Shown here piece by piece: positions 5,776-58,438 of a stretch of DNA of 64,000 nt. Origin of the DNA: Straminergon stramineum (taxonomy: Eukaryota; Streptophyta; Bryopsida; Hypnales; Calliergonaceae); NCBI GenBank assembly GCA_963920665.1, contig OY987273.1, positions 10,542,501 through 10,606,500 of the forward strand, in the 5' to 3' direction. The position numbers and the translations under genes were made by a program. Under the pieces are notes generated by a model that searched no databases, was not told the DNA's origin, and saw only the letters and a program-made list of their open reading frames with translations. Positions within the stretch are counted from its first letter, which is position 1; each line of letters starts with the position of its first letter.

Positions 5776-5811
5776 ATCAACAAGCATACACGGTAATACT
5801 ATCAACTAACC

Positions 5812-27603: not shown

Positions 27604-27639
27604 ACACAAACAACCTAACCCTCACTAAACCAAAAGCTT

Positions 27640-37208: not shown

Positions 37209-40030
37209 TGTCGTACACGTAGTGGAGCGTGAGTACCATTACAACACCAAAACGTCATAAAATGACTCGAAATATCGTCCCAGGGAATTCTAGACTGTTG
37301 TTGCAAGCCGAAATTATCCGTATTGCCAACTTAAGCTCTCTCTTCACCTCTTTTCTCTCTTTTCCGAATCACTACCTTTCCAGAATCCAATCCACATCCA
37401 CTCCTTTCTGAAATCCAGATCCATCACTTCTCACACACACGGGTTTTTGGTGCCTTTGTTTTACCCTTAGAGGGTTCGCCTTTGATCTTGTAGAAGGGTA
37501 GGGACTCACCAATCATATTCCTCAACACTCTCTTCTCTCTCTAAACTATACAAAACACACTTAGACCAATTGGTGTACTAGATTAGACCAAGAAACACTC
37601 TCACAACTTCCCAGATGGCCAATCCGAAAGGCAGGTCACTTAGAGTTGTAACTAGTCTTCTCCACTACAATGACAGATCAGCAGAAACCAGATACCAATG
37701 GAGGATTGTTAGTCATTCACTAGATTGATCCTAGGGTTTGGCAGACCTTCCGGGGAGAATAGGATGGGGATTTTTCCGGTGGCAATTGCTTATCCCCGCA
37801 CGGAACCCTCCTTGGTATTTCGGACTTGCACCCACGCCACTCCTTGTTGGATTTCCATTCCAGTGTTTTAAAGGCACTGTGCACAAGACCGTATTCACAA
37901 GCCTAAACTACATCACAAACGTTCCCTCCCAAATCAAATTTAGTCTCTTCAGATCCGAATTCCTCCTTTCCTCCTCCTCTCTCTTACACTTCAACGCTCT
38001 CACAAACAAACATAGGAAAGCTAGATATATGACAGATTAATTCCCGAATTTCCACTTGGTAGTTCAGATTAAAGAAAGGATGACAAGATAACAACTACAA
38101 GCACTAGGATGGAATGAGAGGACAACAAACCTGTCCCTCACTTAAAAACCCAAAACAACCAAAGCCAAAAAAATCCACCTGGAAATCCAAGTGACCAATC
38201 ACAGACTTCCCAAGAAACCTGGAAAAGTCAAATCCTACAAATCTAGAACCCTGGCCCACACTTGGAAACCCGGATTAGATTCAAAATTCAAATCCCAACT
38301 AACTAAATTCTAACTACTTTGCGCCTTCTTCTTATTGCTCCCGCCTTGATTTGCTAGTGCTCGATGGACGACCTTGGAGTCACTTTCGAAGTTGCCTTCA
38401 CCGGAGTCATCCTCAATGCTACCTAGGTCTGGATCTTCTGGATTTCTGGAGGCAAGTCTTCCTCATCTATGTCCTCCTCTTCTTCTTCCTCTTCCGATCC
38501 GATTTGGTACTCCTCTTCCACAGATTTCTCAATCTGAGTGACCTCCCTCTCATCTTCTTCTCCTAGAGAGGTGTCATCCAAAACTATGGGTGTCCTCTCC
38601 TTCCTCGATTGAGGCTACAGCATATGCTCAAAGCTTTCCAGATGAGTCCTAACTAGATTCATCAATCCTCCAATCCGGTCCGCCAAGTCACTTCGGATAA
38701 GCAACCTGAGTGTTTGAAGGGTCTCCTTCTCCGGAAGACAAATTGTCGGAATCGATGGCGAGATCATAACTTCTGGTGGAACTAACTCATGTGATGCGTC
38801 CGACTGCTTGGCTCGCTCTCGCACTGTCTTCACACTCCCCTGGATGGTCTTCTCCAATTGAGTTGAAAAGGGCTCTATTGAATGCCGGAGAGTCTCCTTA
38901 GGAACTTCCGGTCTTAACGGAAGTGGCATTGATGTTGTCAACTTCATCGGAGTTTCTGTGTCAAAGTCAATTTCCGGAAAGTTAGAAAAATCCATGACAC
39001 GGTCCGGATCAATCTGCCCCAAGAGTTGGTGCATCTCCTTCAACACAGAATCCATCCTTGATGAGAAGTCTACCAGGATTCGGACCACCTTGGATCCGGT
39101 GAGAAGTCCTTCTTCTACAAGCCAGTTTTGGATAAGAGAGGCCTTGACGACAAGATCCACGAGTCTATCCACCAGACCAGATAGATTTTTGACCAGCTAC
39201 AGAGCTTCCTTCTCCCTCTGCTTTGCTACCGCTAGCTCCCCTTGTGCCCAACACAGTCTAGCTTTAAGATTTGTCTTCTCCTTCTCCAGACTTTCAATCT
39301 CCTTCTCCTTCCGTCCCAGCTCTTCCGGATTTGGAAGTTTCTTTATGGTGTTCAGTATGTCTTCTAGCTCAACCTTCAACTCCTTGTTGATCCTCTTCAG
39401 ATAATCCGCCAAATTCTCATGGTACTCCTACGCCTACAAGACCCAGTTGAATCCGGTTTTGAAGAACCCAGAAATGCCTTCTTCTTCATCCTCTGGAACC
39501 TTCTCTTGAACAAGGAGTTTTCCTCGTGAAGCCGGATTAGTGGATTTCTTCCGCCTCGAATCCATGAGCTGCTCCTCCTCTTGTAGCTCTTCCTCTTCCT
39601 CAAATGTCGGTTGCTCCGTCTCCACTTCTTTTGTAAGGCCGTAATGTAGGATGGTGGATCTGGTGGTGTAGTCTACCATTTCTACATCACTCAAGAATTC
39701 CGCATGATGGTAAAGGTGGAATAAGTAAGGACCAATTGGGCTGGCCTTTGCCTTTCCTACATTGGCGGTAAGTTTGGAGACTACTGCTCCAATAACTTTG
39801 CCCCAATTGACCAGTATACCCTCCATGGCACCAAAAATGGTGTTGGCTATCGTAACCGTAATCCAGGTAGGCTTTTCTGGATACAAGATCACGATTAGAA
39901 ATTCTAGGACTTGCTTCTACCTCGCATCTAGACAGTCACTGATGGCATAACCTTCCTTGGAATGGGCTGCATTCCTAAACTTTCCTACCACAAACTTCTT
40001 CGTACAGGAGGCTAATCTGGATCCCTTCTT
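37209..40030 (-). mobile_element. T element copy D/E, 3' part (TSD GGTGT at far ends)
   Basis: On the minus strand this is the 3' 2.8 kb of a T element: it ends ...CGTGTACGACA at 37209 and is flanked by GGTGT (37204-37208). The match to other copies breaks at 40030, in the middle of the ORF (KKGSRLAS), exactly at the end of the 18.4-kb element. The missing 5' part is at 58439-59146, ending beside the second GGTGT (59147-59151). Together the parts make about 3.5 kb. Confidence 0.9.
38340..40025 (-). pseudogene. T-element ORF, copy D/E, distal part
   Basis: Open pieces are 39892-39434, 39412-39197 and 39172-38615. They include VTIANTIFGAMEGILVNWGK, PYLFHLYHHAEFLSDVEM, FFKTGFNWVL, a heptad-like Glu/Lys coiled coil (KEKEIESLEKEKTNLKARL), LVDFSSRMDSVLKEMHQLLG and an acidic end. 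Two TAG codons at 39434-39436 and 39428-39430 stand where copy B has Gln (VLQAQEYH). This copy shows that the Trp before VL is ancestral. Confidence 0.75.
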
Positions 40031-40047
40031 GAACACAATATTCATTA
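40031..40047 (+). repeat. Left TIR of the 18.4-kb element
   Basis: GAACACAATATTCATTA, perfect inverted match to 58422-58438. Just inside, CATTATTTTGGGAGG and CTCTCAAAATAATG (40043-40081) form a near-perfect hairpin. Confidence 0.9.
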
Positions 40048-40271
40048 TTTTGGGAGGTTTAGACTCTCTCAAAATAATGTTATCCATTTAGATGCTTAAA
40101 ACTGAGATTTCGTTTTAGCCAATTTAGGTTGACAAATGTTAAGTTTATTAATTCGAAAGTAGAATTTCCATTAAAATGAGAGTTTTTAGGGTTAGTAAGC
40201 CCCACATTACATTTTGTTCATTGTGAGAGGAAAACTCCGATTCATATAATTGAAGTTCATGTCCTAGACTA

Positions 40272-40440
40272 AACACCAAGTCATGACCTCTGCGGTTGGT
40301 TGTAAGGAGTTGTATATGTCATTCAAGTGGTCCGGGTTCGATTCCTATTGAATTCGTCTGAGCGCATGATCTGTACACATGACTTGGTGCTGCTAAGTGA
40401 GATTCGCAGGCAGGAAAGTTGTAACAACCAACCCAACCCC
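40272..40440 (+). repeat. tRNA-like / SINE-like segment
   Basis: A perfect pol III B-box word GGTTCGATTCC (40335-40345) lies about 35-40 bp after an A-box-like CTGCGGTTGGTTGTAAGGAG (near 40289-40309). It is enclosed by a 12-bp perfect inverted pair, CACCAAGTCATG (40274-40285) and CATGACTTGGTG (40378-40389). No acceptor stem fits a functional tRNA. Most likely a tRNA-derived SINE or its relic near the left end of the large element. Confidence 0.5.
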
Positions 40441-40825
40441 TACCCAAAATGTGACAAGTGCTTTACACGTTAACAAAATAAAAGGTGGGTATACCCACTA
40501 TCTTTTTGGTCGAAATGGATGTACAATTTCAAATGACATATATACAACAATAATTATCTAAATAACTTCATTGAATAATATTGAATATCAAACACCATAA
40601 GAAAATACATATAATAATACTATATGTACTTGCAATTGTTCTATACACGCATAATATATTCTTGCTAACATATATGCAATACCAAACAATAATATAAAAC
40701 CAATCAATTGAACCCTATTTCATGTACTATAAAATTTAAATTCCAATTACTACATGAATAATGACGATGTGCTACTACATTATTACAAAATGTGTAGTAC
40801 ATATATACAACCATATCTTTGGATA

Positions 40826-43195
40826 TCAAGTGTACGATGCGAGACTCTGGTTGATGACTTCAATTTGAACAGCCGGAATCTTGATCAAGCAATGGATGGT
40901 GTCCTTCCTTATAGTAGAACTCCATGTTGTCATTAGAGCGTTTGTATGCTCCCAAACCGGCGGCTCAGTTTCATCGACCTTCCAACGCAAACCTCTATCG
41001 CTGTCCCATCCAGTGTAGTTGTCTTGAACTTCCCTACTTCTTGATGTTGGACGGAAATACTGAATGAGGATGCAATTCGGTTTCTCTGGATTACTGTTTG
41101 GATCTGACAATGCCCTTGCAATCCAAACAGGTTGACTGTCACCATCCGCGGGGCGAACTGCAACAAAGTACCCATTGTACAAATCACGCCCCACCCTAAA
41201 TGATGGTTCAAGACGACCAGATCGAGGCCCAACGTACGCTTCATCCTCCGCAAACTCTTCACGGTCCTCACCATCATCCCCTAATTGATCCACTCGTGTT
41301 CGTTGAACACGTGTTTTGGGCCACAAACCGTCCCGCAAAACTGTAGAGCTTGGTAACGGTTCTTGCATTGCTACCCTCACATCACGCCAATAGTGAACCA
41401 AATGCTCATACCGCCTTCGGTATTCTCCAGTAACATCTGCATTACACAAGTTATCCCAGTACTTCTCAAATCCAGATATACCTTTCACAATGTCATTGGT
41501 GCCTTTCATTTCCATAGGTTGTACTGGCATCGGTACTCCACGGGGCCACTGACTTTGCCCTTCATCATCTTCTTTCCACAACTTAATGGGCCTACCATTT
41601 TTCCCTTTCCAATCTGCATCAGTGCACTTCAACTTGTACTTCATGACCGGAATTCCATCTGAATCTAGGTAGAACTTCACTTGTTGTGGCTTTGTGTGCC
41701 CAATTAGAATATCGTCACCATCAATAAATGAACCAGCAATGAACCCCTTGAAATCGGGCACCTCTTCAATTAGATGTGGAATAGTAGGAATGGATTCTAC
41801 ATCCATGAACGACTTCATGAGTGCAGGGACAGTCGGAAAACTCTCCTTCTTCAAAAGCATACTCCATCTCCCAAACAAAGCATCTATGTCGTCATGAGTA
41901 TGACCAACAATCATGAAACTCACATACACTTCACGAAAGATCTTGTTCGCGACTAGTAGAGACCAAAAACAATATACATATCTATTTTTGTTGTCCCTGG
42001 TGGCATTGTCCATTTGCACGTTCAGAATAGGCGGTAATGGCATTGCTGGAAGTAAAGGTTCTGGTAGCGGGGGTAGTGATGCTAGACACATTTCCTTGTC
42101 CTTGAGCACTGCTCTAAACAAAGATGTCGCCCCTGCATTTTCAAACAACTTCCTTGAAGATGACTTCGGTGCTTCTTCAAGGTCTCGCAACAACTTTGCC
42201 ATTGACCCAATGGTGTAATTTGAATCATGCTTAAAGAGATCCAAACCATAATGTGCATAGCGGACATCAGCATGACCATGTGCAATCATGCCAGTGACGA
42301 ACACAGGCAACTTCGTTAAACCATCAAGGTCCTTACTTTTATGGGAAAAGACAGGAGAAGCTGTTTTTGCATGATCCATCTTGTCATGCATGATTGTAAG
42401 ACATTCATGTGGAGATGTTTGAGACCAATATCGGTTTGCATAATAGAGCTCCCTATGCGTGCGAGCCTTGGCAAGGTGTTTGTCCAACCTCGTCGACCAC
42501 AACAGAGCACTTTCAGACCCAGAAAGAGCACCCTTCACGAGCTCACGTAATTTGTCACAAACAGCGCATCGAGCAAAGTTGTCTCCGGGTTGCTTCACAT
42601 CATACTCAGGGAACTTGGTAGACCTGATCTTGCTCAAGTTCGATGTTGAAACCTCCTTCAGTCCGAAAGCCACATTCACTTCGTTGATTTTTGCCATCTG
42701 ACCCTTCCATTGAAACGTAGCTGGCAAAATTTTTGATACGACTTTTTCTCCTGATTTGAGCGTGTGGAATTTATGTGGCATGTGATCCGCTTCCTTTTCC
42801 AAGATGCACTTCAAAGTTATAGACGCTTGTTCCGTGTGTTGCCTTGGCTTCAAAATTCCCAAATTCCCATGGTCCCTAGCTTCCAGACCATCCTTCATGG
42901 CATATTTCTTGTAGCGGTAGAAAGTAGACTCTGGAACCCCAGCAATATGCATCCAGGCTCGCATGCACACGTCTATCTCATCTATCGTGACCACCCTTCT
43001 CCCTCGTGAATCACGATGCATCTGCCTGTGAACTTCAGTCTTAAGATACGCTCTATGCTTGAACGTTGAATTTTGGTACATGCGAAGCAGGAAAGCTCGA
43101 ATCTTCTCTCTTGGAAATGGTTGGACGCAGTTTTTACTACAACAAACTTTGCTGGACACCATATTGATGGACTCTTGACTAAGGAGGTCCTTCAT
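40826..43195 (-). CDS. DUF7869-type putative DDE transposase of the 18.4-kb element
   Basis: Uninterrupted 789-codon frame, by far the longest in the window. From the N-terminus: a Cys cluster (VCCSKNC, residues 17-23), a DNA-binding-like helical stretch ending GVPESTFYRYKKYA (86-99), GNLGILKPRQHT (110-121), a CxxC pair (C210, C213), and HDKMDHAKTASP (270-281). LNVQMDNATRDNKNR (391-405 area onward, Asp near 406) and VGHTHDDIDALF (430-441) follow. The spaced acidic residues in HDKMD, QMDN and GHTHDDID suggest an RNase H-like DDE core, as proposed for DUF7869-type proteins. The C-terminus has YFVAVRPADGDSQPVWIAR. Two relics in the window keep the same motifs. Start at 43195 is the first ATG after a TGA; the homologous region extends further upstream. 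Named family from memory; catalysis is inferred. Confidence 0.85.
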   Translation of the reverse strand: MKDLLSQESINMVSSKVCCSKNCVQPFPREKIRAFLLRMYQNSTFKHRAYLKTEVHRQMHRDSRGRRVVTIDEIDVCMRAWMHIAGVPESTFYRYKKYAMKDGLEARDHGNLGILKPRQHTEQASITLKCILEKEADHMPHKFHTLKSGEKVVSKILPATFQWKGQMAKINEVNVAFGLKEVSTSNLSKIRSTKFPEYDVKQPGDNFARCAVCDKLRELVKGALSGSESALLWSTRLDKHLAKARTHRELYYANRYWSQTSPHECLTIMHDKMDHAKTASPVFSHKSKDLDGLTKLPVFVTGMIAHGHADVRYAHYGLDLFKHDSNYTIGSMAKLLRDLEEAPKSSSRKLFENAGATSLFRAVLKDKEMCLASLPPLPEPLLPAMPLPPILNVQMDNATRDNKNRYVYCFWSLLVANKIFREVYVSFMIVGHTHDDIDALFGRWSMLLKKESFPTVPALMKSFMDVESIPTIPHLIEEVPDFKGFIAGSFIDGDDILIGHTKPQQVKFYLDSDGIPVMKYKLKCTDADWKGKNGRPIKLWKEDDEGQSQWPRGVPMPVQPMEMKGTNDIVKGISGFEKYWDNLCNADVTGEYRRRYEHLVHYWRDVRVAMQEPLPSSTVLRDGLWPKTRVQRTRVDQLGDDGEDREEFAEDEAYVGPRSGRLEPSFRVGRDLYNGYFVAVRPADGDSQPVWIARALSDPNSNPEKPNCILIQYFRPTSRSREVQDNYTGWDSDRGLRWKVDETEPPVWEHTNALMTTWSSTIRKDTIHCLIKIPAVQIEVINQSLASYT

Positions 43196-43666
43196 TTTGA
43201 TGCATGTCTCACGCGGCTGATTTCAAACAGTACTTGTATATGGTCGACTACTCTTCGATGATGGAGGATTTGCACGAATCGCTTGCAGACGGTTGTAATT
43301 ATCCCTGATTGCATGGTCATGTAGACTTGCCCCACGATAGTGGACAAGCTTAATATCCCAGGCTACTAAAGCACGTACCCGCTCCTGGGGGATGTCTGCT
43401 TCAGAATGAGTCTTTGAGATGTGTATTGCGACATGAGTGTCCCCAAGGGAACCATCGGCACCGAGGACTAGATCCGAGTTCACACTGTGGCAAATGCCTT
43501 CACCAACAAGAGTTCCCGCATTGTTGTATAGAGTAACAACACTTGTATTCCAGCATCATCTTGGAAACCCTTCGCACTCTGGAATGTCAACCTCCATTTC
43601 GTCTTGCCCTTGTACTTCATCATCAGACCAGACAATACTGTCGAACGGGACATCTTCGGAACACAT
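43196..43666 (-). pseudogene. In-frame N-terminal extension of the DUF7869 gene, broken by two TGA
   Basis: The same frame continues upstream from 43195 to an ATG at 43664-43666 (MCSEDVPFDSIVWSDDEV), interrupted only by TGA at 43223-43225 and 43556-43558. The stretch is homologous to the relic at 14940-15220: VTLYNAGTLVGE against VTLCNEVGDDVA, and VHYRGASLHDH against VFLHGVSLYDH. So the ancestral protein was about 946 residues. Both TGAs could be CGA codons changed by CpG deamination. Alternatives are small introns or a true start at 43195. Confidence 0.65.
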
Positions 43667-43764
43667 TTTACCTGTACCTATCCATACGAATAATGGGGTA
43701 CCCAGTTATACATGAATGGTCTCAAAAGAAACGAACACTCTAAGGTATTCAACTTGACTGTAAT

Positions 43765-44713
43765 AAGTCGAGTCAACCTAAATAGGAAACATTGAAAAGT
43801 CCATGGAAAGGTCTAAAAACGGAAGTCTCCAAGTTATATTCAAATCTCATAAGCTAGACAAATCGATAAATCTGGTTAGATCAACTCGACCTAATCTATA
43901 CAATGTCGGAATCAATACCCAGACAAGACAAGCAGTAAATCATTGTATATTTTAAAAAGTATTTAAAACCCATATTCATTAATAACATGATTGACATATC
44001 TGTGATTTATCTGGAATGTGTCAATTTACAAATGGTTTTGTTTATTCGTTGCAAGTCACTGGACATTTAGGTCGGCTTGACCTAAAAGCGCACACTTAGT
44101 TTGTAAGGACTCCGTCTTCGATGCACATTAAAATTCAGGTTCATAGCAATTACCAACAATTCAATAATATCAATTAAATTGATAGAGTAGGTTAGGTCGA
44201 TTCGATCTAATCAGTAAAATGTCAAAATCAATACCCAGACATTAAAAACAGTAGATCATTGCAAATTTTACAAATAATTTGAACACAATATTCATAAATA
44301 ACATGATTGACACATCTATGATTTAACCGGAATGATTCCATTTTTAAAAGGTTTTGTTCTTTGGTTGCAAGAAACGGAATATTTAGGTCGGCTCGACCTA
44401 AAAGTGCACACTCCGTTTAGGAGGACTTCGTCTTCGATGGACATAAAGTTTTTCGTCCCTTGCAATTACTAAAACCCTTATCATATCAACTAAATAGATA
44501 AAGCTAGTTAGGTCGACTTGACCTAATCTGCACAACGTTCAAATAGAGATCTGAATTATAAATAGAGAATACCGTATCTGTCGACTCCAAGTGCATATAT
44601 AGTTAAAGTAGCAATTTATGTCCTCGTCCGTTTCAGGTCGACTCGACCTAAACTGTATACAAGAATTGAACTATTCTAATGTGATCATTTAGGTCGACTC
44701 GACCTAAATGATC
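43765..44713. promoter_or_regulatory. Palindrome cluster upstream of the DUF7869 gene, in ~316-bp tandem repeats
   Basis: AGGTCGA-S-TCGACCT-class sites lie at 43765, 43878, 44069, 44194, 44385, 44510, 44635 and 44691 (15-bp cores). Spacings alternate 191 and 125 bp because a 316-bp unit is tandemly repeated (about 43890-44200 and 44206-44516 share long text such as ATAACATGATTGACA). The last site is the centre of a 31-bp perfect palindrome, 44683-44713. The cluster occupies the presumed promoter side of the leftward gene. Confidence 0.8.
44281..44295 (+). repeat. Internal copy of the TIR core
   Basis: GAACACAATATTCAT is a 15-base exact match to the element's terminal repeat. It lies in the second 316-bp unit. 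The first unit has a decayed version at 43966-43980. Confidence 0.75.
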
Positions 44714-47700
44714 CCGGAATATCCGGAATATTTAGTATTACTTCATTCTGTCCCAGTGTCCGCATTTTTCGGCGGTTTTACCGGGGCTATGGAAAACGAA
44801 GCTACTCACTCCAGTATCAAATTCGAGAACTGCAACAATGATACAGAAATTCCAACATTCGTCGATTCAAATGCAGAACAACATGGACATACAACACAAC
44901 GAAACAACAGACGAACGATTCATTGTCATTGATTACTGACTTCGAGAAATGATAACCTGGAATCAATTGACTGAAAATCTGAATACAAACTACAGAAGTG
45001 TCCATAGAACCTTACTCAAAACGCTGAGCTCTACCTTCCCGCAGCTATTTACACCTAGTATCCACGGGGAATGCTGTAAGCAACCTTCAGAAAATGGATC
45101 CAAATTGAATCAAAAGGAAGAAACAGCACGCAGAGGAGCAAACCGAAATCGAAAATGTGAGAAAGAATACCCTAACCCAGACATGCATGGAAGTGGATGA
45201 CTTCTTGGCGGGAAAAAAGAAGCGGGAAGTGAAGAAATGAAGTTCGAATTCTTCAGCGGCTAGCTGTAAATATCGCTTGTTGACTAAAAAAATCCACTAC
45301 GTCGTTCACTTTTTTATTTATAAAAAGGCATGGACAGCTATTTTCGATTTAAAAATGTATCGCCCTCTTTCCGGTTAACAGTGTTCTTGAGATTCATTTT
45401 CTATTTCGGAGAAAGTCCTTTTCGTTTTGTCAGTTCCACGAAGTCCCTCTCATTAATATGATCAGTGGGCCCTTCTTATTACTATAGGCAACAATATTTT
45501 AGGATATACTCAATGCTAATTTTAAGGCAGCATGGACTGCACATGGTACTTAAAGTAGAGGAGTCTATTATGAATTTTTGTCATTACCCGGGGAGCAAAA
45601 CATTTTCGTCTCATGTACATATTCCATTCCTCTTAGCATTTCAGTAGGAAGTCCAAATCTTTTTTCAACTAGAAATATGTTGGGACCACAAGTCCATGGA
45701 ATCCAACGCTACTTTTTCACTATTACGTGTACCTTTTACAGTTTGAGTTTGAGTTTTTTTAGTAACTATTATAGATACAGTTCAGGGGGTTTAGGGTTTA
45801 GGATTTTAGGGTTTAGGGTTTAAGGGTTCAGGAGTTCAGGGTTCAGATTTCATGGATTTTAAGATCATGAATGGACTTTTTTGGAGAACAACTGAGGGTG
45901 TGCTTAGAGGTTACTTCAAACCCATATTAAATTTGTATAGGGTTTGCAAAAAGTTTATATCTCTAGCTTTATTCTTTTTATTCAAGGGATTCATGTTTTA
46001 ATTCTTAGGACGAATGATTTGAATGCTACTTTTGGAAAGGTATACTACAAATAAATAAATTAATGAGTCATTTATCTTGGAAATAGTCTAAAAATGTATT
46101 TTTTTATCTTATAACTCTTGAGTCAAATTCTATGACGTGGACGACTACATTTTGTTTTAGTGTAGTAAAGGCCTCTCAATGAAAATTTGAAAACTAAATA
46201 TGCAAATTCAGAATGATCCTCATTCCTATCATTGAAAAAATTTAGAACCTTGAAAAAAAGAGTACTACCTACTCTTTGGAATTTGTTTTGTTTGTAATAT
46301 GAAGTATTCAAATCTTTATCTTAAAGTGATCATAGAATAGTAACACGTACAAGTTCTACAAACATAAAGACTACTTTACAGAGTTTTAGAATAGATTAAG
46401 TGCTATATTCATGTTTTTAAAATATATTATGAAGTTTCCTAAGAAATGAAAAATGACCATACATACACTCTTATCATAGAGACTATACTTATAGGAACCA
46501 TATAGTTTTTGCAAACAGATATTAGACAAGAAAAAAATTTATGAATTACTAATAATTAAATCACACCTGAAGTGAATATTTTAAAGCTATTTGCACAACT
46601 TGTACATATTTAAAAGTTATTTCATGAAAGGCAAATGAATATGAAATTCATGTGTTCAATGATTTTAGGTAGTAATTTTCTCTTATGCCAATTAAAAAAA
46701 GAGTTGGAAGCAATTAAGCAATAACTATTTACATATTGGGACATCGAAATTCTACATTTTTTAATTTATGTCCACTAGTGTAAACTTTGCACTCTTCGTA
46801 ATGTCACCCTATGTAGAGTGCAAAATGGTGGAAAAAATAGATTGTAAGTACTATTTATAATTAACGAACACAACTTATAGAAATGTATAATTTCAAGTAG
46901 AATGTGTGAAAGAAAATGACCCAAGACGTTCAAAATATTGACAATATCTAAAGGTCCTTCAAAGTTGAAGATTGTAGGTGCTACTCTTTCTTTAAATTAT
47001 ATTGTGAGACAAATGACTTAGGCATCTTCTTTATTAAAAGAAAAAATGTTTTAGAGGACAAGACATACAATTCATAGGAAAATCTATAGAAAATATGAAT
47101 CTACATTTTCAAAATATAAGAATTTCTATAAAGTTATAGGAACATTGATGTTGTAGTATATATGTTTAAAAATTACAATAGAATCCTAAACAAAGATGAA
47201 GTATAAGCATAGGCACTTAAAAAAATGTAGCTTGTACATTGAAAAGTTTTTTAGGGAGTAGACATTCATGCACACATTCAAATAATGAAGTTCATTTGTA
47301 AGTTCAAAATACTAGAATGAGTGAACAATGCTGTAATATTTGTGGTGAGGGTACAATAATTTGAAATCAAGCAAAGTAAATAACAAAAAATAGTGTGAAT
47401 CAATTTTGCTGAACATTAAGTTATTTCACATTTTTATAATGCTAAATAATTATATTGTATCATGAATTGAGATGCACATACAAAATTAGGCTTCAAAACA
47501 TTCCAAAATTCGCACAATTGGGAAATGCTTGCTTACATACAATAGAACTAGAATTTGTATAACTCACTAACACCCTCTTCTTCATACACTTAGACATGTA
47601 AGTGGTTGCATGAGTAACATGTGAATTATGTTTTTAGAAGCACTATGGCTTTATATTATTGTTTGTTATTGCAAATATGTTGGCAAGACTAGATTCTATA

Positions 47701-49404
47701 TTTACAAAACAATTGCATGTACATATAGAAGGCTACATATGTCTAAGATAACATGAAATGAATCATTGCAAGGCACTATTGCATTCATTCCATTAAAATC
47801 CAATCATTCATGGCTTTAGATGCCACATATATAGTTATGATGATTTATTGGAAGGACCATTTTGTATTGAGTGCAATATTAGGAAGAAGTAAATGACCAA
47901 TTGAAATACTTCAAAATTTTTTGGTCTAGGGTTTAGATTTTCTTTAGCTTTCCCTTCCAAATTGTGCCACTCTATATCTTTCTTCTTACGTCATTAGTAT
48001 AATGTCTACAAAATTCCCATTGCTACATTTGTGCTTATTGTAAAAATTTACCTTACATTTAACATTCTAGCAAGAGTGACACTTTGATAGAAAAAGAAGT
48101 AATCTTGTAATTCTTCTATTCATTTGAATGAAATGAAAATTATCTATTCCAAGGAAGTAATTATGTTATAACCAGTAAGCTCTTAGACCACCTTCAATAC
48201 AGTCGACAGTGAACTTCGTATACTTTATGGTGGGTAAGATAAAGGCTATTGTAAATTTATGTTGATTATTTAGCACCTTTCCCTACTTTCCCCCTCTATA
48301 ATTCCATGATGAATTCCATTCTAAAAGAAAATGAAACAAGTAACTATGAGATAGTTTGAAAAATATTTTACATTGTGTGGAGCAACATGTGCCCCAATTA
48401 TTTACAACTGCTCTACATTTATGACTTTATCAATCTCAATACTCAATTTCAATGTGCTCTCATTCATACGTACAATGAAGCTATAATTGCAAAGCAATGA
48501 AGAGTTCCAATTACAAAATTTACAAAGCAACTTCTTAACGGTTAGTACTATCAAAATAAAAAAAAGTGAAATGTACTTATTTTGTAATTCCTATAAAGAA
48601 CTTACATGCATGACTTGAATAATAACACTACAAATGCCCTACACCAAAGTGCATGCAACCTTCATTGGTAAACATTTTTCAAGATTACATAGTATGGTGG
48701 AAGCGTGATGTAAGGGTTTCTTTTAATCACAAAAAATTGACGTAATTTCCTATTTTTGAAATATATTTCCCATAATTCTTATTTGAATATGTTCCCATGT
48801 CTACTGAAAAATATCAAGAATTATAATGCATTTGAAGGGCACTTATTATTTAAAGTAAATTTCATACCCACACCCTTTCAATTACACAAACAATATAAAA
48901 GACTGCAATTAGGTGAGGTCACCCTCATATCTTGTACATTTGAACCGTGTACAATTTTTTACTATTACTACTATACAGAAATTTACTAATTTAGTACTTG
49001 GTATTGTTGTCACTATCTATTCGTGGAACTTTCTTGTTTACAAATGCACCTATATGTACATTAGAAGTTCTTCTTCACTTTAGTGCATGTAAAGTAACTT
49101 TCTAGGGGACAATGCCCCATACTTGTATACCTGTAAATTGATTTTGACGTGTATTGGTTGATAAATGGCAAAGAATTTGTATATGTAGTATGTAACTACA
49201 ACTATTCATCCTTCAAATTTTGTATAGACAGGAGAGACATTTCAATATGTTTTAATCTCTATAGTAAAGCTTTAATTTTTTTGAATGAGATGATGTCACA
49301 TGGTACTGAAAAGGTTGATTTCCATGATGCACACTTTTTTCTTTGAATGTTTAGGCAACCGAATTTTAGTTTTGAATGTACGTATGTCCTATACTCCTAT
49401 TGAT
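44714..49404. other. AT-rich non-coding interior of the 18.4-kb element
   Basis: No gene can be supported over 4.7 kb. Small frames at 44708-45200 and 45465-45823 have no counterparts in other copies. A telomere-like tract is listed separately. Base composition becomes very AT-rich from about 46000 to 49300. Confidence 0.5.
45783..45846 (+). repeat. Interstitial TTTAGGG tract
   Basis: GGGTTTAGGGTTTAGGATTT and further TTAGGGTTTAGGG units, degenerating to GTTCAGG. It lies between the two divergent genes of the large element. Confidence 0.8.
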
Positions 49405-49800
49405 ATGGGGTGGGTATGTTTGTGTGGGTATGTTTTAATGGGTACGTAAATGCGAGTACATTATTTGTGGATAAAGGGGTGGCGGGTATGTGGGACGGGT
49501 ATGTGGTGCGGGTATGTGTAGAGTACTTTATGGGCTGGTATATGTTGGGCGTTAGGTTTGGGGGCCGGGAACGGCTGGGTATTTGGGGGTAGGTATGTGG
49601 GGGGTGGGTAAGTTGGGGGCGGGTATGTGCAGGCGGGTATGTGAGGGCGGGTATGTGGGGGAGGGTTTTTTTAGGGGGGTCGGGTATGTGGGGGAGGGTT
49701 TTTTTAGGGGGGTCGGGTATGTGGGGGAGGGTTTTTTTAGGGGGGTCAGGTATGTGGGGGAGGGGGGTTTTCGGGGGGGCGGGTATGTGGGGGGGCAAGT
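49405..49800 (+). repeat. G-rich minisatellite, GGGTATGTG units and a 33-bp repeat
   Basis: Many GGGTATGTG words, with four consecutive 33-bp units at about 49649-49780, each GGGTATGTGGGGGAGGG followed by TTTTTTTAGGGGGGTC. In translation it gives 11-residue repeats on either strand (GMWGRVFLGGS or PHIPDPPKKTL), which I take as artefacts. Runs of G make quadruplex formation plausible. Confidence 0.75.
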
Positions 49801-49826
49801 ACGGGGCGCGAAGGCTCCAGTTAGGG

Positions 49827-50060
49827 TTTGCTTCTCCTGCCGCTGCTCCTCGTCGTCGGTGCACCCCTCATTGTCGCTGCGCCTCCTGCCTTTTGCTGCT
49901 CGTCGCTGCGCCTCCTGCCTCGACCTAAACTCGTCGCTGCTGCTACTGCTGGTGGTGGTCGCTGCTGCTGCTGCTGGTCGTCACTCCTGCTCCTGCTTCT
50001 CCTGCTTTTGCTATTGCTTCTGCTTTCACTTTCCTCGTTGTTGCACGTGCTCTCATCGTT
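49827..50060 (+). repeat. CTG/CTC/CGT trinucleotide-rich tract
   Basis: Imperfect GCTGCTGCTG and CTCCTGCTTCTCCTGC repeats. Both strands open low-complexity frames. A half palindrome TCGACCTAAA lies inside at 49920-49929. It may be transcribed 5' sequence of the big gene, but no coding claim is made. Confidence 0.6.
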
Positions 50061-50576
50061 GCTGTTGCTCCTCGTCTTCCTCCTTGCACCGTTGGTAGGG
50101 TTTACGTGAAGCTCTCCTCTATTGCTACTGCTCCTCCTGTCCTCATTGACGTTGGTGCTCGTCGTCCTCTTCCTTGCACATATCGCTATTGGTGGTCTCC
50201 TTGCTTTGCCACAAATTGCACAGGTTTTGTTCTTCACTTCTTTTACTTTCAATTTCATTGAAATTTAAGTAGGTTCATTGTGTCTATATGCTTTGTTTGT
50301 GTGGAGGAGGTCTTCTAAAGTCCACTTCTATAGTTATGCTGTTCTGGGTTGTCCTTTGAAGTTCTGGACTGTGCGTGATGGTGTTTTGGAGTATGAGGGT
50401 CTCAATGTCTGCTTCAATGTGATAACAAAATGCTTGATGCAATTACATCCGTTCATCGTACCAGTGCATTTGGTGTAGGGTTTTGGTAGTTCTTTTTTTA
50501 GTGTAGATTTAGGAATGCATAGTAGCTTTATAGTATTGCATTGTGCTCTACGATGTTCTTTTGAATTTAGTCTCTA
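50061..50576. other. Upstream region of the big gene
   Basis: No supported gene. A CACAG|GTTTTG donor-like junction near 50223 and more balanced composition suggest a transcribed leader, but this is only a suggestion. Confidence 0.3.
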
Positions 50577-53500
50577 ATGAGCTCGCAATGCAATGAGAGA
50601 GTGTTCTTTAAACATAGCAATCTGATTTCCCCTTCAATTCTCCAGAATTTGACATCCACTCTTAAAAACCTGCAGGACTATCTCGCTTGGGAGCGGATTA
50701 TTGAACAAAAAATTTATTTTCCACAGATTTACTTGCAGTCCAACGCAGATACCCCTCCCACGGCCAAGGTAATCCTTCATAGCTGCAATTTAGGTCGATG
50801 TCACTTTAGGTCGACTGTTGTGATAGAGGCTTCGAAAATTCCTAGTCGTGGAATGAAATCACATCGACACGAAAGCAGAGCGTCATTTTAGGTCGGGTCG
50901 ACCTAAAATGACACACATCTCCCTGCTCGTTCAACATACACTATCCATCCATCATACGTAACAAGACAGCCTGAGCACAAAAACCCCATCAATCATGTTG
51001 GAAAGTGAACAATTCAGGTCGAGTCGACCTAAACTGACTTAAATGTCCATGCTTGTTGAAGATACCACTTCAATATCTGGAGTATACTGGCTAAATGTCG
51101 AGTATCACTAATTACATATGAAAAATTCACAATTCAGGTCGAGTCGACCTAAAGTGTCCTTAGCCAGCAACTACTGAAGTAAGTAAAAGTAACGATTACA
51201 CACAAATAATATCGAACATGTTGTTTAAATATATTGAGATGTGTAACCTATTCTACGAGGAAATTTAGCTTCTGACTAAGTAAAATTAACCGATACAAAA
51301 TCGATTAGGTCGACTCGACCTAATCAATCTGAAACAAAAATGCGTTAAACCAAAATTCTGTATAGAATAACAGCAGACCTTAATGTAATTCAAAAATTCT
51401 ATAATGTCTTGACTAAGTCAATGCTTTTAGGTCGAGTCGACCTAAACCAGTGAAAAGCTAACATAATATCCACCATTGAAAGCAGAATGGAAGAGCAGGT
51501 TCAAAAGCTTGAAGCCTTCTGCAAGCGACTTGATATCACCCGGGACAAGGAAGATGGGGACGATTTTGAAAACGATGGGGATTACTGGGAATTTCAATCA
51601 CTGGAGAAGATGGAGAAATGGAGCCTCAAAATGATTCCCTTCAAAAATCTCATTTGCTTCTCTGCAAAGTATAAAGACAATGAACCATATTATCCAATCT
51701 CCTATGACGAAAAGATCAAAGACATCGCCCAAGACGTCGGATCAATAATCAAGATCCATTGTGTGACTGCGCAAATAGGGTTAAAAGATGAACAGCAGTA
51801 CCACTTCACAATTGTACTTGACGCAGCAAAGATCGAATTCAATATAACCCCTTTCCTGGAATCTCTCCAGCCAACGGAGTACAGAACCGAAATTCCAGAA
51901 TTGGAAAGAAAGGTCGACTCAAACTTTTTCAAGAATGCTGCTGGGAGGCCGTTTAGTGGCAAACAATTGTGCAATCGTCTACGAACACTTTTCGTCGACT
52001 TTGCAGTATTGACAGCAAAGCTTGACCTCAAACGAAAAGAAATGGTCTCCCGCTCAGTATCGCACGACGTGCCAAGCCATGGAGAGGGCCAGGGATCTAT
52101 GGGAACTCCAGGGACGCAATAGAGTCGTGGTACACGGAGAAGTAAACAAGCCGCAACCCCGCCCACGGGAACAAGGAAGAGCAACCTAGCATCCTCCTCG
52201 GGGAGACGAGGAGGAGAAGGTGCTCCTTCAATTTCAATTGCTGGAGAGCAAAGCTTCGCATCCGCTGTTACAGACGTGCCAGAGGCACATGACCCCAAGC
52301 GCAAGCATGACTACAAACAATCAACAGAGGCCTACAAGAACTATTGGACCTCTTGTACAGATGCTTATATTTTTGAGATAAACGAAAAGAAGTCTCTCTC
52401 CATAGATCAACTTATCCCCGCACCACTAGAAATGAACATCCGTAGTCACGAGCAAAGGCTAGCAGCGGATGTGTTGCACTATTTAATTCACATGCCGGAT
52501 AAATCGACTAAGCAAACACTCTGTGTCATGCCAGTAGACCAGACGTGAAGCCGGGACCTACATCTTGGGACACCATCAAGAAGGGAGAGTTTTACCTTAT
52601 CAATGGTCAGCATAGTGTAACCGCCAGCAAGATGATGGTGGACATGAACCTGGATGAGGAGATTGTCAAGCACTTTCGGAACTGGGATTGCTACGTCGTA
52701 TGGTCCAACGACAACAAGAAGTTGAGATCCATTTCCGCATACTACAATAGAGTAAATCATTTTGTTGCGATGAAGCCATCCTGGTCAACGAACATCCTAG
52801 GCGCGAGAACTGTGTGGGAGAACATGGGGAGGCCCAGAAATCCGAAGGAAGCTGTACCTGTTGGCACTCTCTCCAATGCCAGACGCAATGCAAAGAACAG
52901 GGCCAACTCCTTGAGATTCAAGGTCAGTGATTACTTCCTTGTAATATGGGGCCTGTAAATGCATTTTAGATCGAGTCGACCTAAGTTGGCTTTGGACTTA
53001 TGAGACTTGATTTGCACTGTGTAGAGGAGTTTACAAAGGCCATGAACAAGCGTTTCGCTATGCTTGACGTCGTGAAGTCTCAGAAAGCCACTTGTGGGAA
53101 GGGTGGTGAGGAGAAGCTGAAAATCACGAATGAATTGAAGATTGTCACCGCTCCCGACGATGTTTTCAATTTGTGGAGTGAGGTCATCTCCAGTGCTGCT
53201 CACGGAGAGCTCATAGACCCGGACACGCTGCTGAAATTTAACAAGAGGTCGGGCTGGAAGTCTGAGAACGGGAATTTGACGCATGAATTTTTCAAGTGGC
53301 TTGGAAATCTCTCGCTAGCTGATCTTGCGAAACTTGCAAAACACATTCTCAATCAATAGACAGGAAAGCGGGACCAGCCATACCTGAAGGTGACGATAAA
53401 AATGATATCGTCAGTGCTGGAGAGCTGTTACACTTGTAAGGAGTGGGTTGAGCGGCGGAAGAGGAAATATTTGGTAAAGAAGGAGCTTTACCTTTTGGAC

Positions 53501-56500
53501 CCGACACTTGGTCTGTTGAATGCCTTTGATGAGCTCAACGTTGAGAAGTGGCGAGAGTTCAAGTCTAATCGGAACATCACTAGCGCTACAATGAATGTGC
53601 TACTTGAGCAACCCAGCGATGACTATTGGAAGGAGGCCAAGAAAACGAAGTCGAAGAATAAGAAGGCCGAGGAAATGTCACCCTATGTTGCTAAATTCTT
53701 CAAAGTGTTTCTGGAGAGGAGGTCGAACTTTGTGAAGCCGCTCTTCGTTGCTCATTATCGTCCATACGATATCAGCAATGACGTGCATGCTGATTGGCCA
53801 AGAGGTGCATGGAAGGATAATACAGTGGAGGATGTAAGGTTCGGAGTGATTGACTTTAGATACACTCCTGGCGTCCTCAACAAGCTGAAGTGCAATCCAA
53901 CTATGCCGTACTTCTTCGCTGTGCTTAAGTCGTTCCAGGAGAAGAAGAAGCCATTGTTGGAGGAGGTCGGGACATGGCTCTTCATCTGCTCGGATTTAAC
54001 CGAGCAAAATCAAGCTCTACATTACGTGTAGAGCAATGAAGTGCTCAGAGAGTATCAAATGGACTACTCTGACTATTGGCCAGCACGGCATGAGAGGATG
54101 GGAGATTACTCCCCAAACAACAGTAAGGCTATGGAGAAAGTTTATCTTACCTTCCTGCAGAATCCTAACAACGTTGTTCTCATCACCCCAAAACCTGCTT
54201 ACAGAGCACCGAATACTGATGTGTTCAATAAGCCAAGGGCCTATAATGAGCTACGATATAGAATTAATAATATGGAGCTGCGGATGGAATTCTACCTCGG
54301 AATTCTGAAAAGGTTTTGCTTTGCGGGGAGGAGTGTTATGTCGTTGTTTGCCAGCGCCAAGTTCACATGCGCAGCAATGGTATGTTGTTTTAGGTCGAGT
54401 CAACCTGAATTTGCATTTGTGATTTTGTGTTGGAGCGCTCAAACATGCTAATTTCATTACTATCTAAAAAAGAAGGCTCTGATAATATTTTTTTGACTGG
54501 TAATGAACATCAGAATTTGTCAATGACATTCAGTTATAGTTACCTGTTTAGGTCGAGTCGACCTAAGATATGTTCACTGAATCGAATCCTGTTGTTTCCC
54601 TCCCTGTGATTTTTAGATGAGCGGCCTTAATGTCTACGCTGTGGGAGTCTCGGATGAATCGGCAATGTGGACTGACATTGTGGAAATGGCCAAGTCACTA
54701 GACATTAAGGACTTCGAGCCAAACGGGTACTTCGTCGATGAAACCAGATTCAGTCGGAAACCCGTGGGTGCATCAACACCTACATCAAGCAGGAGAAAGG
54801 GAAAGTCGGTGTGGGACCGATCCTACACCCCTTTAGGTCGAGGCGGTGGATCGCAACGCGAGAGTATGGATTTATCCTCCGACACAGAGGCCGATGACGA
54901 TGATCTGGATGCGGACGACGTGCAAGAGGAGCAATGTACGCCACCAGCGCAGCTATCACAAAGCCTTCGAGGGTCGTCTGCTTCGTCGGGGCCCCCTGTG
55001 GAGAGGCAGCCCACTAGCACCCCGCCTCCAACCACGGGCGAAAAAAAAAGGAAGAGGGCCACCTATCGTGATGTGGATCTTCAGGCTGAGATAGCGCAGC
55101 TCAGAGCGGACAGAGTGAAGGATCGAGCAGATTCCTTGGAGTTGTATGCGGAAACAAATAAACGAATGGACATGTTCCTAAACTTCATCATAGCGGCAAG
55201 CAAACGTCAAGATGACCAGTTTTCCGCCATTCAAAATCAGCTTGCAGGGATCAGGCCGCCGGCTTCGTTGCCACCATCGCTTGAATCTGGCCAGTTGAAG
55301 ATCCAGGGTCCCCTCACAGGTTCTATCAACAGCGGGGAATCTAGTCTCGCTCATCCCAGTGCTAGTCTTCCCGGTCTGGCTCCGACCTCCTTTGTTGTCC
55401 CAGCTCCTCCTCCTCCAAAGGAAGATCGCCCCGCAACTCCAACTCCACCAACAGAGCCTGAGGTTGAAGAGACGCAGGTGGATGCAACGCCCCCATTGGC
55501 CACACCTGCTGAAGGTGCGGATGTTGTTGGTCCCAGAGAAGGCTTGGCGGAGGACCTCGATCACAATGAGCTCTCATCCAGCATGAATACACCAGCAGGT
55601 TGTAATTTATAATCACTCGATGTCAAGTGTATAGTTAGGTCGACTCGAGCTGATTTGTAATATAGATTTTTTTGTAGCGGAAGACGTTTAGGAGCGAAGG
55701 GGCCTTCCATTTTGACACAGGACTTATATTGGAAAGAATTATGGTCATGAATTCTTCATTTTGAACATCAATTTTGAACATCAATTTTGTATTTTAAATT
55801 CCAATGCGATTGAATGGAAGTATGTTCTTGATATCTTACAAATTGCCTCTCTATATATTCCTCTGGTGCAGGCCTTGTCAATGTGTTGAAAATGCCTTTA
55901 TCCTCTGTTGCCCCAACCCTTCACTCGCCTCCTCCACCGTCGCATGTTCCCATTTCCCTGGAGATGAATTTATCTCCAACGCCAAGTGCAGTGACATCGC
56001 AACCGGGGGATAAGACCGCAACAAGACCGTGTCCAGGAGATGATGACACCTCCATTCCCGATGACGTGCTCATGGAGGTTAGGATTCCTGATCCAGTCAC
56101 TATGGCCTTGGAAGATCTGTCACAGCTGGGAACGTCTTCTCGACAGCAGGTACATTTTGCTGTCTTCGATATTCTTAGTTACAAATGTCATTCAGCGTTA
56201 GGGGTGTTCCTTTCTTCTACCATTGGTTTTTTTATCCTGGATTGTGGGTTGCCATTTCGTTTCGCGTGAAGTCCAAAATTCGTCCCGTAGGGTAGTAATT
56301 GGCTATGAATGTAGCCGTTTGTTAGCAGGGATCGGATCCTCCATGTCGTCGTGGAGAATCGTCGAATGAAGTCAACGTTCCATTGAGGTCCAGGGTGACT
56401 GAGAAATGGCTCAACGTCGTCTTGGACCTGAATGGACTATTATGTGTTTGCGAGGATGCTAAAGTGAAGGGTTGGGCGAGGCACGTCGGTGACGCGTCGC

Positions 56501-57126
56501 AGCCCCACTCCGCCACGATCCTTGTGGTTGTGGGGCCGAAGGCTATGTACGTCCGACCGGGGTGTGCACGATTCCTTCGTGAATTAGGCCAAGTAGCTTT
56601 CGTCTCAGTGTGGAGCTCAATGAAGAAGTCCACCACAGAAGAAGTCTGTGCATATCTCTTCCGGGATCTAGGAATGCCCTTCCTCGTACTAGGACAGGAT
56701 TCATGCACGAAGCTCAAGTGCAAGGATGGTTCAGGTCAAGTCACCACGTTCAAAGAGCCAGGGACGAGCAAGGAACTTTTCCTCAAAAAACTTGATACAT
56801 TGTTCAATGGCTCACATGGGAATTTCACGCCCGAGAACACCATTGCAGTGGACGATAGTCCCGTTAAGCATGTCATGAACAATGCAGAGAACGTCGTACT
56901 CTCGGACAGTTGGAGTCACAGGGGGAATGGTCCGAAGGACTCATTCCTCTTGGACGTTCTACTTCCTTGGTTTAGGCGTGTGCACGATGCTCGAAACCAA
57001 GGGCTAAAATCGTTCAGGGAGAATAGTAAGGGGAAAATGGGGCGGAAAATGCTCTGCAACGAACGAAGTCGTCAAGAGTATAATAGGCTTATGGAAGTGG
57101 TCCGAGTGTCCTCGACTTTGAAATAG
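50577..57126 (+). CDS. Six-exon big gene: NGQH (ParB/DGQHR-like) domain fused to an FCP1-like HAD domain
   Basis: Exons by reading-frame and GT/AG phase: 50577-50768, 51499-52922, 53027-54379, 54617-55598, 55872-56149 and 56329-57126, about 1,675 codons. All junction phases agree (0, 0, 0, 1, 0). Exon 2 is one base short, implying a 1-nt deletion near 52525-52545. In-frame TAGs occur at 52120, 53357 and 54029. Three decayed copies in the window show the same exon order, which supports a single gene. Domains: N-terminal region, INGQH motif, basic central domain with EWVERRKRK, acidic/Pro-rich exon, HAD C-terminus. The role is unknown. It may be the element's DNA-binding or accessory protein. 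The first exon is the least certain; ATG 51487 is an alternative start. Confidence 0.7.
50792..51443. promoter_or_regulatory. Palindrome cluster around exon 1/intron 1 of the big gene
   Basis: Half-sites AGGTCGA at 50792-50798 and 50808-50814; full 15-bp sites at 50890 (one mismatch, arms extend to 50882-50912), 51016, 51136, 51307 (23-bp perfect arms 51303-51325) and 51429 (TTT/AAA-flanked). Spacings run from about 120 to 170 bp. The placement mirrors the cluster before the DUF7869 gene. Confidence 0.85.
51499..52922 (+). pseudogene. Exon 2 of the big gene, with INGQH motif
   Basis: One frame runs 51487-52548 with a single TAG at 52120-52122, then shifts by one base to 52545-52922. Early blocks YWEFQSLEKMEKWSLK, HFTIVLDAAKIEF and NITPFLESLQ align with relics at 62508-62038. 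The Ser/Arg/Gly-rich linker follows the TAG. The second half carries LSIDQLIPAPLEMNIRSHEQ, GEFYLINGQHSVTASKMM (INGQH at 52598-52612), YVVWSNDNKKLRSISAYYNR, then WENMGRPRNP. The GQH motif within a hydrophobic strand-helix context resembles the DGQHR and ParB/sulfiredoxin-like signature. Relics keep INGQH or INGQY. The exon ends AAG|GTCAGT. Confidence 0.75.
53027..54379 (+). pseudogene. Exon 3 of the big gene, central basic domain
   Basis: Follows a TAGAG acceptor and is open in one frame for 451 codons except TAG at 53357-53359 and 54029-54031. Motifs in order: VFNLWSEVISSAAHGELIDP, THEFFKWLGN, KEWVERRKRKYLVKKELYLL, PYVAKFFKVFLERRSNFVKP, then NELRYRINNMELRMEFYLGI, ending FASAKFTCAAM|GTATGT. 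All four copies in the window share the WVERRK and RMEFY.. blocks. No known family is recognised. The Lys/Arg clusters would suit nucleic-acid contact. Confidence 0.8.
54617..55598 (+). CDS. Exon 4 of the big gene, acidic and Pro/Ser-rich with a coiled-coil segment
   Basis: Begins after TTTTTAG with MSGLNVYAVGVSDESAMWTD and is fully open for 327 codons plus one base. It ends CCAGCAG|GTTGTA. It contains an acidic block (SSDTEADDDDLDADDVQEEQ, 54874-54933), a basic KKRKRA patch (possible nuclear signal), a helical segment (EIAQLRADRVKDRADSLELY) and a Pro-rich end. A palindrome half-site TTTAGGTCGA lies in the coding text at 54832-54841. Relics start with MYG, MFG or the like at this exon. Confidence 0.8.
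56329..57126 (+). CDS. Exon 6 of the big gene, FCP1/NIF-like HAD domain
   Basis: 266 codons, intact. Exon 5 (55872-56149, Pro/Ser-rich) joins it in phase (SSRQQ|GSDPP). Motif I is VVLDLNGLL (DLNGLL at 56425-56442), motif II FVSVWSSMKKST, motif III NTIAVDDSPVKHVM (DDSP at 56851-56862). The order and spacing fit the FCP1/SCP (NLI-interacting factor) branch of HAD phosphatases. Canonical members have DxDx; here the second Asp is Asn, as in a plant-type group with a DLNGLL motif. It could be a phosphatase of altered chemistry or a binding pseudo-enzyme. The family comparison is from memory. Confidence 0.85.
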   Translation, partial: GSDPPCRRGESSNEVNVPLRSRVTEKWLNVVLDLNGLLCVCEDAKVKGWARHVGDASQPHSATILVVVGPKAMYVRPGCARFLRELGQVAFVSVWSSMKKSTTEEVCAYLFRDLGMPFLVLGQDSCTKLKCKDGSGQVTTFKEPGTSKELFLKKLDTLFNGSHGNFTPENTIAVDDSPVKHVMNNAENVVLSDSWSHRGNGPKDSFLLDVLLPWFRRVHDARNQGLKSFRENSKGKMGRKMLCNERSRQEYNRLMEVVRVSSTLK

Positions 57127-57459
57127 GACACTTTTGTTTCCATAGATCAGGTCCATTTGAGCTACTGGGAGGGCACATCGGGAAATTTCATTCTTTGTGC
57201 AATTTAGCTCGGATTGACCTTATTTGTATATAGTCAATAAGCGCATTCGTTTCAAGTTTGTCCAATCCAATTTCTATAATAAATGTTGATTTCATGCTTG
57301 ACTATGGGAAACTCAATGTTGTCATTTAGGTTGCTTCGACCTCATGTGCTCGTCTCTCTGTATCGGATGCATCTACTACATGGTGCTTGTTTGTATTACG
57401 AGTTGTCAATCTTTGTGGACTTCTCACTTGGAAAATCTCTAAGCGCCGCTTCATAGCAG
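57127..57459. other. Spacer between the big gene and gene 3, with one weak palindrome
   Basis: Non-coding. AGGTTGCTTCGACCT at 57328-57342 is a decayed site, and AGCTCGGATTGACCT near 57206 a weaker one. Confidence 0.5.
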
Positions 57460-58095
57460 AGTTTCGGCAACAAGCCATCTCCACTACCAGATGCCAGTCT
57501 TCCATGTGCGGCATCAATGGACTCCGTCCTGGACTACAGCCAAAACGCTATTCTCAGCACAGGGAACTTCCTGTGCTCGGCGGCGACTGCCAATTCGACA
57601 ATGGACTTCTCAATCGGGCCCATAGAGGACGGGGTCGTGGACAGTCCGCCTAATGGAGCGCCTCGTTTGCCGAAATCATGCTCACCTTCTCCTTTGAAAT
57701 TCAGAGATCTTATGGCTTCCAGGAAGTCGCCATCTGCCTTGGAGAGAATGCCATAGAGAAAATTGTATGAAGACGTGGGAATTCCAAATACTACAATGGA
57801 GACGAAGAATCCCCTACCTATAGAACCCTACAAACAAGTTCTCCATGTCCGATCTCATGGGCCTCCTATTCCTCGTCCACGAGCACAATGTCTAGGTGTA
57901 CGGAAGACCAAGACGCACGATGGAGTGCCACCCAATAGATATGCTGCACCGGTTTTCGACGCTTGGGATCGAAAGATCTTACGACTCCAACGGCTTCAAG
58001 GGCTAAGGGAATATAAGAAGAATGATAACGAATACAGTCGTGGACCCGAAATTATGAAGGCCATGGAACTGCTGAAGAGTAAATCGGACATATAG
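57460..58095 (+). pseudogene. Gene 3: small Ser/Pro-rich downstream frame
   Basis: The frame opens just after a CATAGCAG acceptor-like site at 57459 and runs to 58095 with one TAG near 57754. Recognisable pieces are MDFSIGPIEDGVVDSPPNGA, SPSPLKFRDL, RKLYEDVGIPN and a basic helical end. The rightward relic at 11244-11942 shares EEGVVDS.P..GP, SPLK and KKLY, which supports real coding. No family is recognised. It may be a seventh exon of the big gene if the stop at 57126 is bypassed by splicing, or a separate gene. Gene 3 ends 343 bp before the right end of the element. Confidence 0.5.
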
Positions 58096-58421
58096 ATGTT
58101 GTTCATATTTTTGATACAAAGTCTATACATACATGTAAGCATTGTGCAGATATGCAGTTACTTATAACTCAATGATGGGGTAAATCATACTCACGGCAGT
58201 TATAGGCATTGTCACAATCCTTTTGTGAACAGGAACTCAAAATCCGTATAGGAGTTCTATATGACAATCAAATTTTATTATACGTACAGTAGTTTCTAAA
58301 AATAGAGTCACCTTCTGCCACGTTTTTGAGTACTCTTTCAGGAGATTAGAGGGGTATTGCTTGAATCTGTGTGTAAAAACTAGGGCTCTATACCTCTCAT
58401 TTCATTGGAAATCTCTCATTT

Positions 58422-58438
58422 TAATGAATATTGTGTTC
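58422..58438 (-). repeat. Right TIR of the 18.4-kb element
   Basis: TAATGAATATTGTGTTC, exact complement of 40031-40047. TCTCATTT is repeated twice just inside. Confidence 0.9.

Follow-up and report, generated by a model that had tools for sequence, protein, structure and literature searches.

What kind of element occupies the right-hand part of a 64,000-nucleotide stretch of the moss Straminergon stramineum (contig OY987273.1, positions 10,542,501 to 10,606,500; hereafter the window), where two large divergent genes and arrays of a short palindrome lie between inverted termini, and how might its genes and palindromes serve it? The element is a real DNA transposon of the large cut-and-paste type, complete in span but decayed as a copy. 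We propose, with a probability of about 0.7, that it belongs to a family of giant cut-and-paste moss transposons, probably of Sola type, in which gene A would encode the transposase and the gene B product would read the palindromes and act against silencing.

Termini, target duplication and dispersed copies

The element spans positions 40032 to 58437 (18,406 bp, no strand assigned), its bounds being set by 33 paired copies and by paralogs of the repeat that it interrupts. The original prediction had placed the ends at 40031 and 58438, with perfect inverted termini of 17 bp, and both 17-mers (GAACACAATATTCATTA, at 40031 on the forward strand and 58422–58438 on the reverse) are indeed perfect, with 0.02 expected at up to two mismatches. 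However, the outermost base of the 17-mer varied freely across 30 fetched pairs and fell within a 4-bp target-site duplication in the set of 33 pairs; the terminal inverted repeat (TIR) is therefore 16 bp long (AACACAATATTCATTA at 40032–40047, forward; 58422–58437, reverse), and the predicted ends, which rightly delimited a complete DNA transposon, lay one base too far out on each side. A third copy of the 17-mer, with one mismatch, is found at 44281, in a tandem repeat inside the element that has a period of 316.

Genome-wide, the exact 17-mer occurs 36 times in the 326-Mb assembly, and its reversed control not once. Candidates for a 200-bp left end were scored for the best 40 of 111 and those for a right end for 40 of 136; counts are lower bounds. 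Pairing of the termini, suggested earlier as a check, gave a properly oriented right end within 75 kb for 36 of the 40 left ends, with two right ends of a second subfamily added to the set; 28 of these 36 pairs are 14.9–24.6 kb apart. Target duplications were compared in 33 pairs: 30 with both ends fetched, two copies fetched in full and that of the window; three listed pairs were left out. The 16-bp terminus is flanked by an identical 4-bp duplication in 29 of the 33 and by one of 5 bp or more in none; shuffling the pairs 2000 times gave 1.0 on average and never more than 6. This decides for 4 bp among the 2, 4 or 8 bp suggested. One of the three pairs left out, fetched later, has TATT on both sides. 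The TIR is exact in 26/33 left and 30/33 right ends, and target preference is weak (at most 0.25 bits), with A/T in the middle of the duplication and a pyrimidine three bases outside it. In one case an element (C3:37.116–37.135) is nested inside another (37.112–37.149), both with exact duplications. By eye, the printed flanks of full-length copies (30 bp; 12 bp) look unrelated, and the termini thus showed none of the continuing homology that would have told against them.

In the window, the duplication reads CTTG at 40028–40031 and at 58438–58441 (both forward). As originally proposed, the insertion lies inside a repeat, here the T element, whose halves (37209–40027 and 58442–59139, assigned by collinearity with T paralogs) abut the termini: the flanks 38461–40028 and 58439–59139 align continuously with three further copies of T found elsewhere in the window (17684–19603, forward; 32150–34375 and 26593–27604, both reverse), which are collinear with the split T. 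These paralogs show the empty site. Rebuilt with a single duplication and counted by eye, that site measures 21 bp, which matches paralogs A and C, while in paralog B it is 20 bp; the equal length claimed for all three holds for two.

Gene A, the gene set and the probable relation to Sola

Gene A lies on the reverse strand at 40826–43666 (about 946 codons, start codon placed by hand) and, as predicted, encodes a DUF7869-type protein (PF25273, E = 1.8e-42), the only Pfam family matched by gene A and by its relative P0003 at the thresholds used; a literature search found no mention of DUF7869. Three aspartates, D418, D543 and D585, are invariant in 38 relatives of gene A, and each either follows a predicted strand or lies on a helix in a model whose core has low confidence. 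Gene A is probably the transposase and may be of the DDD type, in which case it would cut at the termini and join the element to staggered 4-bp targets; DUF7869, a Pfam family without an assigned function, thereby gains a context, that of a probable transposase acting in an element that makes 4-bp duplications. Named relatives of the element's proteins come from Physcomitrium and Ceratodon. Elsewhere in the window, a remnant of another DUF7869 gene (15676–16628, forward), in which 232 bp are 68% alike to gene A, adjoins a T element starting at 16639, and a 233-residue piece of this remnant scored below the DUF7869 model threshold.

The third predicted cargo frame, ORF3 (57517–58095, forward), was borne out as a conserved gene with 189 matching proteins. 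In Ceratodon, the locus tags place a gene A relative (KC19_3G000300) close to one of ORF3 (KC19_3G000100), in records of equal length. When longest-contig sizes were compared among the listed matches (112, 38 and 113 distinct values), equal sizes occurred in seven cases for gene A and ORF3, Ceratodon included, and in two for gene B and ORF3; these coinciding record sizes indicate indirectly that the genes move as a set. Eleven full copies in S. stramineum hold the same gene segments, one of them with gene A partly deleted, and two subfamilies can be distinguished. The left 2.1 kb, which include much of gene A, are 93–97% identical in all 11 copies (the comparison of c11_10.89 used a shifted piece of 1.7 kb), whereas the right 2.1 kb are 82–96% identical within and 58–61% between subfamilies. 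Against subfamily E, the window copy is 94% identical over 3.65 kb, and beyond that mostly exons align. Such alike left and divergent right parts show that gene A and the left end have been exchanged between lineages.

Known systems are compared here on the basis of excerpts from the papers cited. Sola elements encode a DDD transposase, make 4-bp duplications, can exceed 15 kb and have TIRs of 11–1124 bp (PMC10741241), and Sola1 is listed for Physcomitrella (PMC9033089). The Ectocarpus element Sola1-1_Ec32, 21.5 kb long, carries a gene for a ParB-like protein with an N4/N6 DNA methyltransferase opposite the transposase strand (PMC12477816, which points to earlier work for similar algal proteins). 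The moss element shares with it the giant size, the 4-bp duplications and the opposite-strand ParB-like/methyltransferase gene; it differs in that gene B has lost the methyltransferase motif and gained a fusion to an FCP/NIF phosphatase. Because the duplication (29/33 pairs), the short TIR (16 bp), the large size and the opposite-strand gene fit published Sola elements, a giant Sola relative is the most likely assignment, short of membership in the superfamily. The unfamiliar type originally claimed is accordingly right only in part. The phosphatase fusion, the palindrome arrays and the array-bearing miniatures are unmentioned for Sola in the excerpts, no search having been aimed at them alone; the excerpts of PMC8226300 contain neither ParB nor Sola. 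Sola2-Fanzor chimeras of Dictyostelium and Polysphondylium (PMC3627910) also combine 4-bp duplications with a near-identical 5' part and a wholly different 3' part among families, as in the module exchange seen here; they differ in their Fanzor cargo and AT-rich duplications, those of the moss element being weakly biased.

Other classes fit less well as described in the excerpts. KDZ elements (Zisupton, Kyakuja, Dileera) are likewise giant transposons with accessory genes, but require a duplication of 8 or 7 bp (PMC12730594), and hAT elements one of 5 to 8 bp, while none of the 33 pairs matches at 5 bp or more. In the CMCT group (CACTA/EnSpm, Plavaka and others) CA..TG termini are usual and AA..TT is found here, although 4 bp is within the group's 2–5 bp range. 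Ginger requires a Gypsy-type integrase domain, whereas gene A and P0003 match DUF7869 alone in Pfam.

Gene B, palindromes and miniature copies

The large NGQH/HAD protein of the original prediction reads as one spliced gene, gene B (51487–57126, forward), with introns at 52923–53024, 54380–54616, 55599–55871 and 56150–56328, placed from GT..AG borders and reading frame. A ParB-like domain and an N4/N6 DNA methyltransferase fold were both recognised by fold, and an FCP/NIF phosphatase domain (PF03031, E = 1.2e-13) occupies 56330–57126. N4/N6 DNA methyltransferases have a catalytic (D/N)PP(Y/W) motif; gene B carries no DPPY motif and reads D-F/L-R at that place, D675 and R677 being conserved at 90% or more.

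The 15-bp palindrome AGGTCGA(C/G)TCGACCT occurs, at up to two mismatches, 18 times in the element and is absent from the remaining 45.6 kb of the window; at up to three mismatches the window holds 21 matches where 0.67 would be expected, and 19 of the 21 fall within the element, in agreement with the palindrome array described earlier. Eight sites (43765–44705, 0–2 mismatches) lie upstream of gene A and five (50890–51443, 0–1 mismatch) upstream of gene B; one is in gene B intron 1 (52968–52982), two (54392 and 54550; 54392–54564) are in intron 2 and one is in intron 3 (55637–55651), so that 17 of 18 are noncoding (P = 3e-4). Each of the 11 full copies has 8–19 palindromes, and in subfamily E they stand at corresponding places though most of the surrounding noncoding DNA cannot be aligned. 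The central noncoding region also contains a G-rich tandem array (49460–49800) with periods of 33 and 14 bp and GGGTATGTGG-like units.

A miniature family with the same termini gave 159 matches, with 40 of 67 candidates scored. We examined 21 miniatures (20 picked from the match list and the first one found), which measure 314–709 bp as cut. All 21 carry palindromes, 109 in total against 0.35 in shuffles, mostly 51 bp apart, in a search that allowed CpG decay plus two mismatches; only 2 palindromes with every CpG intact were found in 13 miniature copies. Identical 4-bp duplications flank 8 of the 21, or 10 with one mismatch allowed. The absence of homology past the termini, which held for full-length copies, fails for 11 of the 21 miniatures, which share sequence beyond the cut point at one end: TTTGACACACAA follows exactly in six of these and similar letters in the others, from which we infer that their true ends are further out.

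A comparable layout is found in Arabidopsis, where VANDAL21 has a short motif repeated in its noncoding DNA, in front of one gene and within the introns of other genes, and the element-encoded VANC21 protein binds this motif, with loss of methylation shown (PMC5735166). The VANDAL21 motif is a same-orientation 9-mer; that of the moss element is a palindrome, and loss of methylation is here a prediction. By this analogy, the ParB-like protein of gene B would bind the palindromes in promoter regions and introns, marking the element's DNA as self, and would keep the element expressed despite host DNA methylation. The ParB-like fold, the VANC21-like array layout and the retention of arrays in short copies together point to gene B as the array reader, and miniatures may retain termini and arrays because both are needed in cis. 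In our judgement, anti-silencing is favoured over transposase recruitment. We put forward only tentatively the wider idea of a self-recognition system built from bacterial-type parts, in which a fusion of a ParB-like domain, an altered methyltransferase and an FCP phosphatase reads parS-like arrays, and gene-less miniatures carry arrays so that they are recognised, stay active and can be mobilised. Mosses, a group that includes a tractable laboratory species, now offer a defined motif together with a candidate protein to read it, so that experiments can ask directly whether the ParB-methyltransferase proteins encoded by plant and algal transposons mark or protect the DNA of their own elements.

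Several observations weigh against the main proposal. The RNase H fold of gene A lacks confirmation, its modelled core having low confidence and structure searches having listed no transposase; in profile libraries, gene B likewise matches neither a ParB nor a methyltransferase family. The degenerate methyltransferase motif means that an enzymatic mark is not implied. Gene B is a candidate palindrome binder for which another element or host protein is an alternative. As the miniatures have a common ancestry, the 109 palindromes counted in them are not independent. Four of the 33 pairs have no exact duplication, three being off by one base (C11:0.74, C11:16.57 and C11:10.89) and one unlike (C11:5.30), and among the listed matches those of genes A and B share a longest-contig size in no case.

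The palindromes stand in front of each of the two divergent genes and within introns, positions that would also suit ordinary enhancers or repressor sites recognised by a transcription factor of the host, with gene B otherwise employed. We consider this doubtful, since control of genes A and B gives no direct explanation for miniatures of 314–709 bp that keep and multiply the sites at a spacing of about 51 bp. In other plant transposons, subterminal repeats serve as transposase binding sites, and the palindromes might accordingly be internal gene A binding sites needed for assembling the ends, a reading consistent with their presence in full-length and miniature elements alike and with gene A being the module most alike between subfamilies. 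It appears unlikely, as the sites are not subterminal: the first is at least 3.7 kb from the left end in 11/11 full copies, and the last is at least 2.8 kb from the right end in 10/11 and 1.1 kb in c11_13.81.

If gene B instead partitioned or tethered excised element DNA, as bacterial ParB does with parS, its ParB-like fold would be accounted for. This is improbable, there being no extrachromosomal form in evidence and no ParA-like gene noticed among the open reading frames, for which no dedicated search was made; the place of the ParB arginine motif reads NGQHS in the rows covering it. Finally, modules do recombine, as the left and right 2.1 kb illustrate, and the whole could in principle be a chance composite of unrelated repeats with host genes as cargo. 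This is hardly credible, since dispersed copies repeat the termini and duplications and the 11 full copies agree in their gene segments.

Decay, selection and neighbouring sequences

The prediction of a complete transposon stands for the span of the element. The copy itself is not intact, with TGA stops at 43556 and 43223 in gene A, TAG stops at 52120, 53357 and 54029 and a frame change near 52546 in gene B, and a TAG stop at 57754 in ORF3. The window copy is dead; it may have inserted before it decayed, or have been moved by an intact relative. Other full copies have CGA or CAG/CAA at these codons: 7/10 at each of 43556, 43223 and 52120, 5/9 at 53357, 8/9 at 54029 and 10/10 at 57754. At three of the six codons, one or two other copies carry the same stop. 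All six stops fit C-to-T changes, CGA and CAG being methylatable contexts in plants; in ORF3 most copies have CAA, hence a CAG form is needed. When aligned to the frames of the window copy, the other ten full copies are likewise interrupted by stops, each in one gene segment or more.

The ratio of nonsynonymous to synonymous substitution rates (dN/dS) relative to the other full copies is 0.15–0.36 for gene A, 0.07–0.41 for gene B segments, 0.14–0.27 for the phosphatase and 0.18–0.57 for ORF3, which shows that the compared segments of the three genes have been under purifying selection. In these comparisons gene B segments 1–3 are synonymous-saturated against subfamily E and give no ratio, segment 4 is unmatched there, the exon 55872–56149 was left out and three split copy-segment pairs were dropped.

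The window contains older, decayed relatives of gene B (with a WVERRK motif) or of its phosphatase, noted by eye among open reading frames at 1315–2349 (reverse), 5038–6657 (forward), 10484–10864 (forward) and 60189–60659; the remnants at 60.2–60.7 kb and 1.6–2.3 kb are 71–72% alike, and two gene B-remnant pieces tried in Pfam gave nothing above the cut-off. The repeat called T here is about 3 kb long, with window copies at 16639–19603, 32132–35292, 26581–27604 and, split by the insertion, 37209–40027 plus 58442–59139; T pieces tried in Pfam matched no family above the cut-off.

Copies are unevenly distributed: C11 (17.4 Mb, 5.4% of the genome) carries 21 of the 40 scored left ends (P ~ 1e-16) and 19 of the 36 exact 17-mers, an enrichment that a sex chromosome or otherwise non-recombining chromosome would explain. 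At two further loci, C4:5448189–5449405 (L018) and C5:4021232–4022448 (L020), two termini are nested about 71 bp apart, the outer one resembling the right end of the full element.
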